From positions 1 to 25,504 of the forward strand of contig JASEGJ010000014.1 of assembly GCA_030018135.1 (NCBI GenBank): a DNA stretch of 25,504 bases, read 5' to 3'. Position numbers and translations under genes: made by a program. The notes under the pieces are model-generated. The model made no database searches. It was not told where the DNA came from and saw nothing but the letters and a program-made list of their open reading frames with translations. This document shows, one piece after another, positions 5,071-14,935 of the stretch; positions within the stretch are counted from its first letter, which is position 1; every line of letters begins with the position of its first letter. The stretch is from Candidatus Hodarchaeaceae archaeon (GTDB lineage Archaea > Hadarchaeota > Hadarchaeia > Hadarchaeales > Hadarchaeaceae).

Positions 5071-5147
5071 CAATACTTTCGGTGACCCCTTCCCAAAAGT
5101 CGTTTAATTGGTGTCTGGTATAATCAGGTTTGAACAGGGTGACTGGC

Positions 5148-8100
5148 TTGAAGGTACTTGATGTCTGTAAAAAATACGGCTTACCTGAACAAATCGCTGA
5201 AGTGCTGAGAAAATTTGACATAACAGAACTTTACCCACCTCAGAGCGATGCAATAAAAAAAGGAGCACTGGAAAATAAAAATTTGGTCTTAGCCGTACCA
5301 ACCGCCAGCGGAAAAACTTTGATCTCAGAACTTTGCATGCTTAAATCGATCCTCACTGGCAAAGGAAAATGTCTCTATATCGTTCCGCTTCGAGCGCTGG
5401 CGAGCGAGAAGCATGAAGAGTTCAAGGAGAAGTATGGTCCGCTCGGGGTGAAGGTTGGCATCTCCATCGACGCTCAAGAAGAGATCGTCGTTGAGGAGAA
5501 TGGCAAACTAAAAATTGTCCATGTTAGTGAATTAGACAAATTTTTTATTAATTCTAGATCTAACGGTCGCTTTGAATGGGTTGAAAATCCCCCCTTATAT
5601 GTGTTCGGTTTCGACCCAAGCACGCTTAAAAATGCTAAATTTCGGGTTACCAAGCTTATTAGACATCCGGCCCCGGAAAAGATGCTCCAAATTGTAACAA
5701 CGAGCGGAAGACGTTGTATCGTTACTACTGATCACAGTATTTTCAGTTTGAATAACAACGAGGTAATGCCCGTGAAAGCTGGTTCGCTTAAGCCTAGGGA
5801 CTACATTGTCATTCCATCGCGAATAGAGTTTCCAGCCAGTAAAAATGATGTCATCAATATCGCGCAAGTTTTAGCGAAGAAGTCTAGAGTAAATTATTTC
5901 TTGCGCGGGATATCCCATTTTTTATTATCCCATAAACATGCACTCATCCGAAAGTTTGGAAGGAGGCGTGTTAAGGATTGGTTCCGTAATGACTCTGTAC
6001 CCTTGCAAACTCTAACAGGATATCTTGGCATCGAAAAACTTTCGGAATTGCCGAAAGAATGCAGGATTGCTTCAGGGACCTCACCGAACTCTATGCCCAA
6101 TTACATACGAGTTGATGCTAAACTAGCCAAATTTATTGGTTACTACCTAGCAGAAGGTTGCCACGATAAATACGGAATCAGCATAAGTTTTGGGCCAAAT
6201 GAACGGTTCTTGGCTCAGGATGCTATTAAGTGCATAAAAAGCATTTTTGGGTTTCAACAAAAAATAGAGAAGAAGCACCACAAATTTATTATCAGGATAA
6301 GTAGCCCAGCAGCAGTTGGCCTCATGCGAGATGTGCTCGAATGTGGCTATGATGCTAAAACGAAAAATATACCCTCCCACATTCTTTCAGCACCTTTGCC
6401 GATTGTGTCTGAATGTCTCAAAGCTTACTTCTCAGGGGACGGATACTTGCGGTATAGAAAGGAAGGTGTGCTAATCGCAGCAAATTCTATGAGCAAGCGA
6501 CTGATAAACCAAATAAGCTTTCTTCTGTTGAGGTTTGGAATAGTTACAAACCTTGTACATCGAGAACGGGGCCTGGTAAAGGGTTTGACCGAGATTTGTA
6601 TCTACGGTAGAGAACAACTGGCACGATTTATCAAAGAGATAGGTTTTGTAGAACCGTGGAAAAATGAAAAAATAAAAACAATCCTTGCTCAGACCAAAAT
6701 GAGAAAAGCTCATTTCTCGGAGAGGATACCTATCAAACATACAAGTTTACTAAAACTTTTGAGGGAGTTTAAAATAGCCGGCGAATATCGAGGGGTCTAC
6801 AGCGAAAAAGCAACGGTGAGCAAGGAGGCTATACACGAATCTCTCCAAAAGATGTCTTCATCTAAAGAGAAATCGAACCTATTGAAGTTGATAAACGGGT
6901 GGGTGGCATTTGATGAGATTAAAGAACTTCGCGTTCTAAGACCCAGCTCACAACATGTGTATGATGTCGAAGTTAAGCCAAGCGGTAAAAAAATTGAGAA
7001 TTTTATCGGTGGGTTTGGCCAGATTTTTTTACATAACTCAACTGGCGACTTCGATGTCGTTGACCCGAGGCTCGCCCGCTACGATATCCTCGTCGCCACC
7101 TCTGAGAAGGTCGACTCCCTCCTCCGCCACCGTGCGAAGTGGCTCGCCGACGTTATCTCGGTGACGGTGCTCGATGAGGTACATCTGATAGACGACTCAG
7201 GACGGGGCCCAACCCTCGAAGTCTTGACGGCCCGGCTCAGGCAGGTGAACCCGAAACTTCAGGTGCTGGCGCTCAGCGCGACGATAAAGAATGCCGATGA
7301 GATCGCCGAATGGCTCGGCGCTGAGCTGGTCAAGAGCGACTGGCGCCCCGTGCCGCTCAAGAAGGGCGTGTACCTCGATGGGAAGATAAAGTTCGACGAC
7401 GGGAGCAAGCGGACGGTGAAGACCGAAGTCGAGGACGACCTCGGGGCGCTCGCGATCGACACCGTGAGGGAGGGAGGGCAGGCACTTGTCTTCGTCAGCA
7501 CCCGCCGCTCAGCGCAGGCGGCCGCTGCCCTCGTAGCGAAATACGTGAAAGGGGTTATCTCACAGGAGGAACGCGAGCAGCTGGCCGCGGTGGCGAAAGC
7601 CGTTGAGGGCGCGCTCGGAGAGCCTACGCGGACCTGCCGCCGACTCGCCGACTGCGTTCGCCAAGGGGTGGCCTTCCATCACGCCGGGCTTCACCACGCC
7701 CAGCGGAAGGCCGTCGAGGACGCGTTCAGGCGGAATTTGATCAAGGTGGTATGCACCACCCCCACCCTGGCGGCGGGCGTGAACCTCCCCTCGCGCCGTA
7801 CCATCATCCGCGATTACCGCCGCTACGTCGAACCTTACGGGCTTCAGTTCATCCCCGTGCTAGAATTTCATCAAATGTGCGGGCGGGCGGGTCGGCCGCA
7901 ATACGACAAATACGGCGAAGCGGTCGTGATCGCGAAGGGGAAAGGTGAGGTCGAGGCGCTTTTCGAGGAGTTCATCCGAGCCGAGCCCGGGCGCATAACC
8001 TCGAAGCTCGCGACCGAGCCAGCGCTTCGGACCCATGTGCTGGCCTCGATTGCGGCGGGCTACGTGAGCGATGCCGATGGAATGATGAAGTTCATGGGGC

Positions 8101-8909
8101 AAACTTTCTTCGCCCATCAATACAGCATCGGCGACGTCGAGCTCGTCGTCGAGCGAGTCCTTGATTTCTTAGAGCGGGGGGAGATGGTCCGCAGACAGGG
8201 AAAACTTTTGCTCGCGACCCCCTTCGGGGAGCGCGTCTCCCGTCTCTACATCGATCCGCTATCGGCGGTCATGTTGCGCGATGGCATCAAGGGGATCTCC
8301 ACGCGAGAACCGACCGCCCTCGGCCTGCTCCACCTCGTCTGCCACACGCCCGACATGGGGAGGCTCTACCTCAGGCGGCAAGACTACCCCGATGTAGAAG
8401 CTTTCATCATCGAGCACGCCGAAGAGTTTCTGACCCCCATACCTGATCAGTACAGCGAACCCGACAAGTACGAATTTTTTATGGCCGAGGTGAAGATGGC
8501 CAAGATGCTGCAAGCTTGGCTCGAGGAAACGTCGGAGGATGACATCCACGAGCTGTTTGGGGTTGGGGCGGGAGATATCCGGAGGAACGTGGATACAGCC
8601 GAGTGGCTGCTCTACGCTGCCCACGAGCTCGCGAGGCTCTTCAAGGCCAAACCCGCACTCGCCCCGCTTCGCAAGCTACGCGAACGGATCAGATACGGCG
8701 TCAAGGAAGAGCTGCTCGAACTCGTGCAGCTTCATGGGATAGGGCGTGTTCGGGGGCGAAGCTTATTCAAGGCGGGCTATAGGAAGCTCGCGGATATCAA
8801 GCGGGCCACGGAACGGGAGCTGGCCCTAGTGCCATACATCGGCACAGAAATCGCACGGAGCATCAAACGGCAGGTCGAGGAAGGCGGGGAGTTGGCTGCT
8901 AAAGTTTAA
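5148..8909 (+). CDS. hel308: Hel308-type superfamily 2 DNA helicase, intein-containing precursor
   Basis: This is a Ski2-like 3'-5' DNA helicase, implicated in archaeal replication-fork repair. Numbered from an in-frame TTG at 5130, the extein shows Q motif PPQSDAI (36-42), Walker A VPTASGKT (56-63), motif Ia VPLRALASEK, motif II DEVH (682-685), motif III SAT (716-718), motif VI QMCGRAGRP (915-923), a ratchet domain and C-terminal helix-hairpin-helix repeats (HGIGRVRG, VPYIGTEIA). Removing the intein (residues 112-636) leaves about 728 aa, the usual Hel308 length, and recreates motif Ib as GVKVGISTGDFD. I place the start at TTG 5148 because AGGGTGA lies five bases ahead. TTG 5130 and GTG 5139 are open in frame. 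The first 65 or so codons are AT-rich (37% GC in row 5161-5220) while the rest of the extein is near 60%. Confidence 0.95.
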   Translation: MKVLDVCKKYGLPEQIAEVLRKFDITELYPPQSDAIKKGALENKNLVLAVPTASGKTLISELCMLKSILTGKGKCLYIVPLRALASEKHEEFKEKYGPLGVKVGISIDAQEEIVVEENGKLKIVHVSELDKFFINSRSNGRFEWVENPPLYVFGFDPSTLKNAKFRVTKLIRHPAPEKMLQIVTTSGRRCIVTTDHSIFSLNNNEVMPVKAGSLKPRDYIVIPSRIEFPASKNDVINIAQVLAKKSRVNYFLRGISHFLLSHKHALIRKFGRRRVKDWFRNDSVPLQTLTGYLGIEKLSELPKECRIASGTSPNSMPNYIRVDAKLAKFIGYYLAEGCHDKYGISISFGPNERFLAQDAIKCIKSIFGFQQKIEKKHHKFIIRISSPAAVGLMRDVLECGYDAKTKNIPSHILSAPLPIVSECLKAYFSGDGYLRYRKEGVLIAANSMSKRLINQISFLLLRFGIVTNLVHRERGLVKGLTEICIYGREQLARFIKEIGFVEPWKNEKIKTILAQTKMRKAHFSERIPIKHTSLLKLLREFKIAGEYRGVYSEKATVSKEAIHESLQKMSSSKEKSNLLKLINGWVAFDEIKELRVLRPSSQHVYDVEVKPSGKKIENFIGGFGQIFLHNSTGDFDVVDPRLARYDILVATSEKVDSLLRHRAKWLADVISVTVLDEVHLIDDSGRGPTLEVLTARLRQVNPKLQVLALSATIKNADEIAEWLGAELVKSDWRPVPLKKGVYLDGKIKFDDGSKRTVKTEVEDDLGALAIDTVREGGQALVFVSTRRSAQAAAALVAKYVKGVISQEEREQLAAVAKAVEGALGEPTRTCRRLADCVRQGVAFHHAGLHHAQRKAVEDAFRRNLIKVVCTTPTLAAGVNLPSRRTIIRDYRRYVEPYGLQFIPVLEFHQMCGRAGRPQYDKYGEAVVIAKGKGEVEALFEEFIRAEPGRITSKLATEPALRTHVLASIAAGYVSDADGMMKFMGQTFFAHQYSIGDVELVVERVLDFLERGEMVRRQGKLLLATPFGERVSRLYIDPLSAVMLRDGIKGISTREPTALGLLHLVCHTPDMGRLYLRRQDYPDVEAFIIEHAEEFLTPIPDQYSEPDKYEFFMAEVKMAKMLQAWLEETSEDDIHELFGVGAGDIRRNVDTAEWLLYAAHELARLFKAKPALAPLRKLRERIRYGVKEELLELVQLHGIGRVRGRSLFKAGYRKLADIKRATERELALVPYIGTEIARSIKRQVEEGGELAAKV
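5463..7037 (+). mobile_element. intein with LAGLIDADG homing endonuclease in hel308
   Basis: This 525-aa insertion is in frame. Splice junctions are Ser1 (codon 5463, after GVKVGI) and terminal His-Asn (7032-7037) followed by Ser+1 of STGDFD. Block A follows Ser1 (IDAQEEIVVEENGKLK). Block B is CIVTTDHSIF, with the conserved Thr and His. Blocks F/G are VYDVEVKPSG and NFIGGFGQIFLHN. In between lies a two-motif LAGLIDADG endonuclease: block C LAKFIGYYLAEGC (acid Glu) and block E LKAYFSGDGYL (acid Asp), with KNIPSHIL as block D. All splicing and nuclease residues are present, so I infer an active element. Its GC content (38% in row 6121-6180) contrasts with the extein (62% in row 7261-7320), consistent with horizontal arrival. 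Inteins are known in archaeal Hel308-like helicases such as that of Methanocaldococcus jannaschii. Confidence 0.95.
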
Positions 8910-11091: not shown

Positions 11092-11898
11092 TCAAAGCGC
11101 CTGTCTGAGGGCGCTCCAAAAACTCGGCGGATTTGCCATATCTACCGTCAGATACTCGCCCTCTTTCAGACCCGCGAGTTCCGCCGCCTTTCGCATCGCG
11201 CTGTCGTAGTCCCCAATTTCATCGACCAAGTTGTACCCTAAAGCCTCCCAGCCGTAAACGGTGGAGCCATCCATGAGGTCATCGATCTTCACTTTCGCTC
11301 GATTCCTCTGGATGCGGTAGATGAGTTCGTTCATGAGGTCGTCCACAAGCTTTTGGATGCGGTCATTCTCCTCCTGGGTTGGAGCACGCCACGGCGCAAA
11401 CTCATCCTTCGCCTCGCCGGAGCGCCACACGAAGTATTCGATTCCCTCCTTTTGAAACTTGTTTTCGTAGCTGACCCAAACTGCTATTATCCCGAGGCCA
11501 GCGGTTATCGTTTGGCTGCGGGCGAAAATGTAGTCGGATGCTGAGGCGATGAGATACGCCCCAGAAGCCCCGTATTGGTCTATCGCCACCACAACGGGTT
11601 TCTCGGTCTTTAGTTTCGCAAGCCGTTCCTCGGTCTCGAAACAAGCCTGTGCCGTCCCCCCCGGGCTGTTTATTACGACGACGACCGCACGTATGCTGGG
11701 ATCCTTAAGCGCGTTCCCGATTTGATCCGCGTAGCCGAAGTCGGTTACTTCATCCTCTATCCGAATAACTCCGATGCGGGTCGAGTACACGGAGTACACG
11801 CCATAAGCGTAGAGGATCGCGGCAGCTATAACTAGGGTTATCACTGCCAACCAGATGCGATGCCTTCGCAGCGCGGTAAACCCTCGCTTTTTGACCAT
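11092..11898 (-). CDS. sppA: signal peptide peptidase, SppA-like, membrane-anchored
   Basis: This protease (family S49) degrades cleaved signal peptides in or at the membrane. The protein is 268 aa with one N-terminal transmembrane helix (about 15-35, IWLAVITLVIAAAILYAYG) after a basic start, placing the protease domain outside. The catalytic pair of archaeal/Bacillus SppA is visible: Ser112 in DQYGASGAYLIAS and Lys164 in RSGEAKDEFAPWR. VVVVINSPGG (71-80) is the conserved substrate-strand/oxyanion region. Length matches the short archaeal form, not the double-length E. coli enzyme. The ATG at 11898 is preceded by GGGGTG. Immediately upstream lies the decayed glutamine synthetase fragment, so the promoter has to sit within about 11900-11990. 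Confidence 0.92.
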   Translation of the reverse strand: MVKKRGFTALRRHRIWLAVITLVIAAAILYAYGVYSVYSTRIGVIRIEDEVTDFGYADQIGNALKDPSIRAVVVVINSPGGTAQACFETEERLAKLKTEKPVVVAIDQYGASGAYLIASASDYIFARSQTITAGLGIIAVWVSYENKFQKEGIEYFVWRSGEAKDEFAPWRAPTQEENDRIQKLVDDLMNELIYRIQRNRAKVKIDDLMDGSTVYGWEALGYNLVDEIGDYDSAMRKAAELAGLKEGEYLTVDMANPPSFWSALRQAL

Positions 11899-12406
11899 TC
11901 AAACACCCCTTAACCATCGTTTTCGGTTTGTATTATGTGCGTTCATCCAACGTAAAAGGTTAGCATCTGGGTCGGGCGATCAGATTGTTATCCAGATTCC
12001 GAAGCTTCATCACTCGTCGTCCTTACATACGTGTCGCACATCCTCTCTCCGAGCGCTTTTTTGATGACATCGTCGCTCTCGAGGGCGTCGAGCGCATCGT
12101 CGAGCGTAGATGGAAGCGTCCTTACCCCCTTCTATTTCTTTCCTCCTCGCCCATTTTGCACACATTTTCCAGCGCCGAGGCCTAAGGCCGAGCTTCCTCT
12201 TAACGCCGTCTAGCCAGCGAAAAGCAGGTAGGGGGTTGCACATAAGATCTGGGATCCTGAGCTCCGACCCTATCTACCCCTTCGCAGCTCGAAGCACCTA
12301 TCATTACCAAGGGTTCGAGCCCCAGAAAAACACGCCAGCACTTCGAAGCCCGTTAATGTTCGCCATCTATATTTGAATGGAAGGAATGGCTAAGCAGTTC
12401 TCCTAA
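11899..12406. other. 508-base gap between sppA and the RAM genes
   Basis: This is the only stretch above 300 bases with no intact gene. About 340 bases of it are the glutamine synthetase remnant described separately. The left end (11899-11987) holds the sppA 5' region, with an AT-rich ACATAATAC on the minus strand near 11928-11936 as a possible TATA element. The right end (12325-12406) may hold further decayed synthetase sequence that I cannot align with confidence. Short open frames on both strands here look like chance. Confidence 0.6.
11988..12324 (-). pseudogene. glutamine synthetase remnant (C-terminal part, multiple frameshifts)
   Basis: Pieces of the C-terminal third of a type I glutamine synthetase can be read in order on the minus strand. 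WGSNPW (from 12324), VLRAAKG and ELRIPDLMCNP (to 12232) share one frame that has four stops. An extra C in a C run at 12231-12235 shifts to YLLFAG. A loss of a few codons then shifts to LDGVKRKL (about 12213-12190). ENVCKMGEEER follows (from 12169) in another frame. A shift near 12124 gives LPSTLDDALDALESDD...DTYVRTTSDE, ending at TAA 11988. Order and spacing match the intact GlnA ([49 protein letters not shown]). Residues differ enough that it is a separate paralogue, not a recent copy. The same frame beyond the TAA reads MLTFYVG then stop at 11943, possibly the original C-terminus. Nothing of the N-terminal two thirds remains in this gap. Confidence 0.85.
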
Positions 12407-12646
12407 TCACTCGGTCGATGGTAAGCACAGAAGGGTTTCCGTATGAGTTACTCCCGGCATCCGCTCTAGCATTTCGTAGATGTTTCTTTTAAGTTCCTCA
12501 TAGTTCTTCGCTTCAATAACAACCACAGCATCAAATCTCCCGAAGACCGAGTTGGCTAGCTTTACCCCTCGCACGCGCCTTGCCCTGACGATTTCCTCCG
12601 AAGTTCCAGGTTTCGTTTCAACCAGCACGAAGGCTCGTACAGACAT
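12407..12646 (-). CDS. stand-alone Lrp/AsnC ligand-binding (RAM) domain protein, copy 2
   Basis: This 79-aa protein consists of one RAM domain with no helix-turn-helix. The pattern is strand MSVRAFVLVETKPGTSEEIV, helix, strand VFGRFDAVVVIEAKN, helix, and final strand GVTHTETLLCL, the alpha-beta sandwich that binds amino acids in Lrp. It is a clear paralogue of the gene just upstream: both share MxxRA(F/Y)VLVxTKPGTSE, FGRFDA or WGRFDA, and HTET. It starts ten bases after that gene stops, so the two form one operon with glnA. Known family behaviour: stand-alone RAM proteins oligomerise and can modulate full-length Lrp proteins or enzymes. Inference: it reports glutamine or another nitrogen signal. 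The gene lies directly before the glutamine synthetase remnant. Confidence 0.88.
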   Translation of the reverse strand: MSVRAFVLVETKPGTSEEIVRARRVRGVKLANSVFGRFDAVVVIEAKNYEELKRNIYEMLERMPGVTHTETLLCLPSTE

Positions 12647-12656
12647 TCGCTCACTC

Positions 12657-12890
12657 TCAGAGGGTTATCGCGGTTTCGGTGTGGACGATATCTGGGTGAC
12701 CCGCGACAACTTTGTAGACGATTTCCGTGATTTTTTGCAGGTTGGGCGCCTCGATAATAATTATCGCATCGAAGCGGCCCCACAGCGAGTCGGCTTGCGT
12801 AACTTCCTTCACCTTCTCCTTGATGGATTTGACGACGTTTTCCGAAGTTCCTGGTTTCGTTGTAACTAAAACATACGCCCTCATAGACAT
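12657..12890 (-). CDS. stand-alone Lrp/AsnC ligand-binding (RAM) domain protein, copy 1
   Basis: This 77-aa protein is a single RAM domain (MSMRAYVLVTTKPGTSE, LWGRFDAIIIIEAPN, DIVHTETAITL). It lacks a DNA-binding domain, so it cannot be a conventional repressor. A strong ribosome-binding site, GAGGTGA, lies two bases ahead of the ATG at 12890. The gene begins 31 bases after the glnA stop on the same strand and is followed by its paralogue. Clustering with glnA, gdhA and a full-length Lrp suggests a sensor for nitrogen status, acting by mixing with full-length Lrp proteins or by contacting the synthetase. That role is inference. Confidence 0.9.
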   Translation of the reverse strand: MSMRAYVLVTTKPGTSENVVKSIKEKVKEVTQADSLWGRFDAIIIIEAPNLQKITEIVYKVVAGHPDIVHTETAITL

Positions 12891-12921: not shown

Positions 12922-14394
12922 TTAGATATCTAGGTATAAGTAAAACTCATATGGGGTTGGCCGAAGCGACTGCTGTTTGTACTCCTCCCGTTTGAGCTCG
13001 ATGAAGGTTTCCAACAGGTCTGCTGTGAAGATGTCTTCGAGATATCCGTGATCAGATTCCAACTCATCGAGGGCTTCCGTAAGTGAGCCCGGGAGTTCTT
13101 TTATACCGAGCTGCCTCCTGCGCTCGGGGGATAGGAGGTAGATGTTTTCATCCACTGGGTCACCGGGGTCGATCTTTCGTTTGATCCCATTCAACCCAGC
13201 AGCAACTTGCGCCGCGAAGGCGAGGTAGGGGTTGCACGCTGGATCTGGGGGTCTGAACTCGACTCGCTTCGTATCATGTGCAACTTTCGTCCCTTTGAAG
13301 TAAACTGGTACCCTAACGCCAGCCGACCTGTTCGCTCGGCTCCAGGCAGTGTACACAGGTGCCTCGTAACCTGGCACGAGCCGCTTATAGGAGTTAGTCG
13401 TTGGGGCGACAATCGCGGCCAAAGATCGACTGTGCTCTATAAGCCCGCCTATGTAATACCTCCCCAGCTGACTAAGCTCGGCGTATTCATCATCCGGATC
13501 ATAGAAGATATTTTTCTTCCCATTCCACAGGCTTTGGTGTACGTGCATGCCAGAAGCATTATCGCCAAAGATCGGTTTGGGCATAAAGGTTGCGATCATC
13601 CCCCGGAGATGTGCCACCACCTTTGCGACGAATTTATAGCTGACGATGCTGTCGGCCGCCTTTAGCAAGGGGGAAAAGGTCATGTCTATCTCGCACTGCC
13701 CGGCAGTAGCAACCTCATGGTGGTGGGCGTCAATTTTGATGCCAAAATGCCCCTCCAAAATCTTCGAGACCTCTGAGCGGTAGTCCTGGAGGGTGTCCTC
13801 GGGAGGAGCAGGGTAATATCCCTCCTTGAATCTAATCGGGAAGTTTGTCCCACCCCTACTCCAGATGGCTTCTCTCGACTCGATCCTATACCCGCTTTCT
13901 GCCCAAGCATCCCTAGCTGCGAGAGCACTCGGGAAGAGTTCGACTTTATCGAACACGAAGTATTCGACCTCCGGGCCCCAGTAGGAAGTGGTGAATCCAG
14001 CCCGCCTCACCGCCTCCTCAGCCTTCTCCGCGACGAAGCGCGAGTCCTTGGTGAACCTTCCCCCGCCATATGACTCATAGATTTTCGTCATCATCCTGGC
14101 GGTGCGACGTTCCGGTGGAGACCAAGGTAAGATAGCTAAGGTTTCCGGATCTGGCACTAGGACCATGTCGGACTCGTAGATGGCTTTGAAGCCCTTGATC
14201 GAGGAACCATCTAACTTCCCGAAGCCCGCGCTAAAACTATCGAGGTCAAAGTTCTTTGCTGGGATGGTTATGTGTTGGAGATACCCGGGGACATCGACGA
14301 AATGGAGGTCGACCCACTCAATCCTTTCCCTTGCCATGAGTTCGAGCGCTTCCCTAGCCTCCCTCACAGCAACCCTTTTTCGTGAGGCTTTCAT
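12922..14394 (-). CDS. glnA: glutamine synthetase, type I
   Basis: This enzyme makes glutamine from glutamate, ammonia and ATP, and is a cytoplasmic dodecamer in this family. The 490-aa protein keeps all catalytic positions I can locate: [10 protein letters not shown] (60-69), GPEVEYF (140-146; Glu142, Glu144), HHHEVA and GQCEIDM (Glu227, Glu235), [17 protein letters not shown] (273-289; His285), RLVPGYEAP (Glu344), [11 protein letters not shown] (Arg356, Arg361) and [13 protein letters not shown] (Glu379, Arg381). It should therefore be active. I do not see the adenylylation-loop tyrosine motif of bacterial GSI-beta. The ATG at 14394 has only a short leader after a TATA-like element at 14423-14432. 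Downstream genes are the two RAM proteins. A divergent Lrp/AsnC gene shares the promoter gap and is the obvious candidate regulator. Confidence 0.95.
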
Positions 14395-14494: not shown

Positions 14495-14935
14495 ATGGAC
14501 GAAATAGACCTTGAAATCATCAGAATGCTAGAACAGGATGCGCGAACGCCTTTCAAAGAGATAGCGACGAAGCTTGGGGTTTCGGAGGGTACAATCCACA
14601 ACCGTGTCAGAAAGATGCAGGAAGAGGGGATACTCATCGGGTTCTCCGCTCGGACGAACCCATCCAAGCTTGGGATGGATCTCACCGTCGTCATCGGCAT
14701 TAGAGTAAAGGGCGGAAAACTTGTCGAGGTGGAGCGCGAGCTTTCGGCCCTGCGGGAGGTGAAGTGCGTTTACGATGTTACGGGCGATTATGACGCGATG
14801 GTGATCGCGAGGTTCAGAAGCAGGGAGGAATTGAACCGCTTTATAAAGGAGGTAATTGCAAGTGAACATGTGGAGCGCACCGTCACCCATGTCGTGCTGA
14901 ATACCATAAAGGAGGACTTCACGACCCTGGTCTAG
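14495..14935 (+). CDS. Lrp/AsnC family transcriptional regulator
   Basis: This 146-aa protein is a full Lrp/AsnC protein. Residues 1-45 carry the DNA-binding domain (MDEIDLEIIRMLEQDARTPF, then EIATKLGVSEGTIHNRVRKM), followed by GILIGFSARTNPSKLG as linker and a RAM domain with VTGDYDAMVIARF and VTHVVLNTIKED. It lies between glnA (divergent) and gdhA (same direction, about 100 bases downstream), so it is well placed to control both ammonia-assimilation genes. A short U run (14936-14940) directly after the TAG may end its transcript. Effector not readable from sequence. Confidence 0.92.
   Translation: MDEIDLEIIRMLEQDARTPFKEIATKLGVSEGTIHNRVRKMQEEGILIGFSARTNPSKLGMDLTVVIGIRVKGGKLVEVERELSALREVKCVYDVTGDYDAMVIARFRSREELNRFIKEVIASEHVERTVTHVVLNTIKEDFTTLV

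Follow-up and report, generated by a model that had tools for sequence, protein, structure and literature searches.

Gene order of the glnA slot

In the window, that is, the whole stretch of 25,504 nucleotides analyzed, an intact glnA codes for a type I glutamine synthetase of 490 aa (12922-14394, minus strand; TIGR00653, 571 bits against a cut-off of 429); no other intact gene for a glutamine synthetase was found in the assembly (93% complete). A divergent lrp gene, coding for an Lrp protein with both HTH and RAM domains, lies upstream of it (14495-14935, plus strand). On the other side are two intact genes coding for stand-alone Lrp/AsnC ligand-binding domain proteins, both without HTH: RAM1 (12657-12890, minus strand; 77 aa; Pfam PF01037, E 1.9e-8) and RAM2 (12407-12646, minus strand; 79 aa; PF01037, E 6.7e-9). 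They are located between the intact glnA and the remnant of another type I glnA (11988-12353, minus strand). A junction of about 50 bp (12354-12406) extends from the RAM2 stop to the first recognisable base of the remnant. The left border of the slot is a native sppA-like gene for an S49 peptidase (11092-11898, minus strand; PF01343), whose product is 76% identical to the one encoded at the same position in G005, a genome of the same family.

From PCK to PolB, contig C4 of G005 and the window are collinear. The common order is PCK, lrp1, GTPase, Elp3, Hel308, purB, a gene for a 201-aa protein and sppA, followed by glnA, lrp, GDH, pdxT, pdxS, radical SAM, Nop58, fibrillarin, MAP, and PolB; the sole exception is the Maf gene of the window, which was not found in G005. 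The G005 slot between sppA and the divergent lrp contains exactly one glnA, which is intact and codes for 426 aa. Judged from sequence, the window lrp, syntenic in G005, is native: its product is 66% identical to the Lrp of G005, 62.5% to that of G022 (same order), and 44-50% to Bathyarchaeal-type Lrp proteins encoded beside glnA. The lrp gene of G022 is likewise divergent from its glnA. No clear homology was found between the lrp-glnA intergenic region of the window and its counterpart in G005.

The Hel308-type helicase gene of the window (5130-8909, plus strand) carries an intein at about residues 163-636 (Pfam Intein_splicing, LAGLIDADG_3), which is absent from the syntenic Hel308 gene of G005. 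In addition, a canonical-type glnA adjoins sppA in the opposite orientation in G009 (L053, G009:C14, 2548-4739), suggesting that the slot beside sppA may have exchanged its glnA more than once.

Identity and decay of the broken glnA

The minus strand of 11900-12420 was aligned with GlnA proteins by a frameshift-tolerant protein-DNA comparison (BLOSUM62, frameshift penalty 8, stop penalty 5), as an earlier note on this DNA had proposed. The scores were 325 against the GlnA of G005, 238 against that of G022, 142 against the intact GlnA of the window itself, and at most 172 against all other GlnA proteins compared. The maxima over 200 dinucleotide shuffles were 59, 68, and 61 for the G005, G022, and window proteins, respectively, and the best score among 84 other window segments used as controls was 54. 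At the DNA level, the remnant aligned to the G005 glnA with a score of 234 (shuffles: mean 30, maximum 46), and this match continues past glnA into the beginning of sppA. The similarity of the remnant to GlnA is real and far above chance.

The GlnA peptides quoted in the earlier note are all present, in order, in three minus-strand frames. The limits given there, 11943-12345, do contain remnant sequence, but are better set at 11988 to about 12353, since 11943-11987 lies beyond the end of the gene. The TAA stop at 11988-11990 is the 3' limit of the remnant and coincides with the native C-terminus. The 5' limit of about 12353 is to be read with the best-aligned part starting near 12320 and the bases from 12320 to 12353 matched by eye. 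In the junction 12354-12406, no significant alignment to the G005 glnA was found. The remnant thus delimited covers, in the numbering of the G005 ortholog, about codons 294-425.

The reading frame of the remnant contains about 10 frame-shifting indels and stops in all frames, and its 5' two thirds are gone. Relative to G005, and with exact positions that vary with the alignment, there are indels of 1, 2, 5, 5, and 2 bases within 12282-12313, three additional bases near 12272, a 16-base deletion near 12215, and single-base indels near 12177, 12125, and 12000. The extra C in a run of five C, which had been singled out earlier as one of the shifts, was recovered as a one-base insertion at about 12235. 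About 290 codons at the start of the native glnA were found neither at the locus nor in the rest of the assembly. The stretch 11988-12353 is a pseudogene that comprises the broken 3' third of a type I glnA, and as predicted it is likely to be missed by gene callers. In terms of the type I glutamine synthetase family (TIGR00653, PF00120), it is a relic of the C-terminal, catalytic third that no longer codes for protein, and both its ortholog in G005 and the foreign glnA score above the TIGR00653 cut-off.

In the tree of the C-terminal region, the remnant grouped with the GlnA proteins of G005 and G022 (support 100/99) and was nearest to G005, while the intact gene of the window fell in another clade. 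This agrees with the proposal that the dead synthetase is distinct from the intact GlnA. Its further identification as a different paralogue is not supported by our results: the remnant is orthologous to the single glnA of G005 in the same slot, which makes it the native gene of that slot, passed down vertically.

The differences between the remnant and the G005 glnA at codon positions 1, 2, and 3 were 0.16, 0.15, and 0.47, a ratio of 3.0, which is at the lower end of the range for the intact neighbors (3.0-5.5), and the pattern was alike in all sections of the remnant. This excess at third positions shows that selection acted on the gene during most of the period following the split from G005. 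The loss of the native glnA is thus recent relative to that split.

Origin of the intact glnA and the RAM genes

The identity of the intact GlnA is 71% to its counterpart in G049, which does not belong to the phylum, and 64% to a sequence labelled Methanoperedens, but only 43-48% to the GlnA proteins of the phylum (about 43% to G005). In the full-length tree it was placed among archaeal relatives, in a clade with the G049 and Methanoperedens sequences (98/97) and distant from the two other GlnA types of the host's order, and its type was found in none of the 27 other genomes of the phylum. The window PolB has the reverse pattern, with 82% identity to G005 and 48% to G049. Sequence comparison thus identifies the intact glnA as foreign, a xenolog, and its dead neighbor as the native gene. 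The base composition of the cassette formed by glnA, RAM1, and RAM2 is that of the host and does not point to a foreign origin; the transfer is therefore not necessarily very recent. Mis-binning of the contig, considered because of the foreign-looking GlnA, was ruled out by PolB and the whole gene order, which match the family.

Three GlnA types occur in the host's order (GlnA loci G001-G026; L049, L065): most genomes have a canonical type, G005 and G022 a divergent type of 423-426 aa, and the window genome the foreign type. Two canonical copies each are carried by G004 and G025.

The arrangement of glnA and RAM genes is found in other archaea. Bathyarchaeota archaeon B26-1 has the same order of glnA and then two RAM orthologs, and RAM1 and RAM2 of the window are 66% and 62% identical to its first and second RAM proteins, respectively. 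Strong matches were present in 65 of 300 surveyed relatives of B26-1. In the stretches fetched, the string glnA-RAM1-RAM2 occurred on one strand in 32 other distinct archaeal genomes, including B26-1 (loci with the string: L090 4509-5030; L231, L232, L237-L242, L251-L253). The gaps between glnA and RAM in these genomes are 13-80 bp, their RAM1 and RAM2 orthologs are about 46-70% identical to the window pair, and 4 of the 32 share with the window a divergent Lrp gene upstream of glnA. The RAM-linked GlnA proteins formed two separate clades in the full-length tree, so that their linkage to RAM genes is either ancient or came about more than once.

Among 394 genomes around the host, only the window genome has a closely related RAM pair, and glnA, RAM1, and RAM2 very probably arrived together. 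No sampled genome was found to combine the closest GlnA with the RAM pair: neither G049 nor the Methanoperedens relative has such a pair next to glnA, and the RAM-linked GlnA proteins are at most about 59% identical. This suggests that the cassette may have come from an unsampled lineage or may have been built in steps. At the cassette borders, no mobile-element genes were found, and no direct or inverted repeats beyond the expected similarity of glnA to glnA and of RAM1 to RAM2. No relatives of the RAM proteins were found in viral contigs. Related RAM genes were also observed as divergent pairs, without glnA in the fetched stretch, at L243-L247 (G578, G559, G590, G564, G582), where the RAM2-like proteins are 68-75% identical to the window RAM2.

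The window RAM proteins resemble the stand-alone RAM or demi-Lrp proteins DM1-DM3 of Pyrococcus horikoshii in their size of about 80 aa and in having PF01037 only, without HTH (PMC2995911), but differ from them in forming a tandem pair directly downstream of glnA in a conserved arrangement. The stand-alone protein DM2 of P. horikoshii and Grp of Sulfolobus tokodaii both bind Gln, and glnA is a target of Lrp in Halobacterium (PMC2995911). Because DM2 and Grp bind Gln, the window RAM proteins may be putative glutamine-family sensors for the foreign glnA. An lrp gene adjoining glnA is known in haloarchaea, where a divergent Lrp regulator gene lies beside glnA as in the window; the haloarchaeal cases are full-length Lrp proteins, and the passages of that paper on them do not discuss a RAM pair after glnA (PMC8229911). 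In the literature searched, which covered few subscription journals, no description of glnA linked to stand-alone RAM genes was found. Tentatively, glnA-RAM1-RAM2 could be a portable, self-regulated glutamine synthetase module of archaea, in which the paired RAM proteins would act as glutamine sensors that regulate GlnA or the divergent Lrp, and which might move between phyla as a unit and be able to replace a native glnA next to a conserved lrp gene.

Probable displacement of the native glnA

Our results are best explained by xenologous displacement in situ, caught part-way, and it is very likely that a foreign glnA-RAM-RAM segment replaced the native gene over its first two thirds. This explanation builds on the observed synteny of the slot, the identity and decay of the remnant, the phylogenetic placement of the intact gene as foreign, and the occurrence of the cassette elsewhere. 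The ancestor would have had, as G005 has today, a single glnA of vertical descent flanked by sppA and a divergent lrp. A glnA-RAM1-RAM2 segment of another archaeal lineage would have recombined into the slot beside lrp, replacing about the first 290 codons of the native glnA, probably in a single event and with an unsampled archaeon as donor. The foreign enzyme would now be the source of all glutamine synthetase activity. The orphaned 3' third, downstream of RAM2 and in the same direction, is decaying through small indels. The intermediate state was seen in one genome, which is a draft assembly of 45 contigs. Xenologous gene displacement in situ is described in PMC1274311, which cites Omelchenko et al. 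2003. As in that description, an acquired homolog occupies the locus of the native ortholog with the neighboring order intact: the replacing gene is foreign, it lies at the native locus with undisturbed neighbors, and the native ortholog has been lost. Such displacement is usually inferred from trees, whereas here native debris is still attached and the newcomer came with two extra genes.

The earlier note had supposed that the lineage kept two synthetases side by side and lost one, and two type I GlnA sequences do adjoin here, one of them dead. Some relatives (G004, G025) also have two glnA copies elsewhere, but their extra copies are of the canonical type and on other contigs. A side-by-side pair occurs in none of the 27 other genomes of the phylum, which likewise lack the GlnA type of the window, and the comparison of the syntenic locus, proposed earlier as a way to find an intact second glnA, returned a single gene in the slot of the closest syntenic genome, G005. 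Copies from a tandem paralogous duplication should be mutual closest relatives or both be widespread in the lineage; the two window sequences are neither, and fall in different clades. Long coexistence of two paralogues is thus improbable. A variant of displacement, rather than an alternative to transfer, is a two-step route, in which the cassette would have entered between lrp and an intact native glnA, with both genes working until a later 5' deletion and decay. It would lead to the same outcome and could accommodate the junction of about 50 bp without recognisable origin, but no native 5' remnant was found, whether flanking the cassette or in the rest of the assembly, and one event is simpler, so that this route is possible but rather unlikely.

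It is very hard to attribute the remnant to an artefact, that is, to a live gene broken by errors or to two genomes joined together, even in a draft of 45 contigs. Homopolymer errors cannot account for about 10 shifts, a 16-base deletion, and the absence of the 5' two thirds, the surrounding intact genes are free of such errors, and both flanks match G005 gene for gene, so that the locus is not a join. A comparably slight chance attaches to the 3' stretch at about 12000-12125 being maintained as a small functional peptide or regulatory RNA. This stretch contains no shift, and its differences from G005 are mostly at third positions (0.14/0.12/0.51), but the same pattern extends across the visibly broken part and is thus inherited from the working gene; the open stretch comprises about 46 codons, bounded by stops and without an ATG.

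Xenologous displacement is a known kind of event that is unusually well documented by this one locus. Replacement by transfer is usually recognised from conflicting trees after the native copy has gone, and debris still in place is rarely seen; the points of interest are the preserved intermediate and the cassette. With the native debris, its intact syntenic counterpart, and the foreign cassette all open to comparison, the locus shows directly which way the replacement went and when, in relative terms, it took place. It also reveals a conserved glnA-RAM-RAM string, whose role in archaeal nitrogen control is testable.
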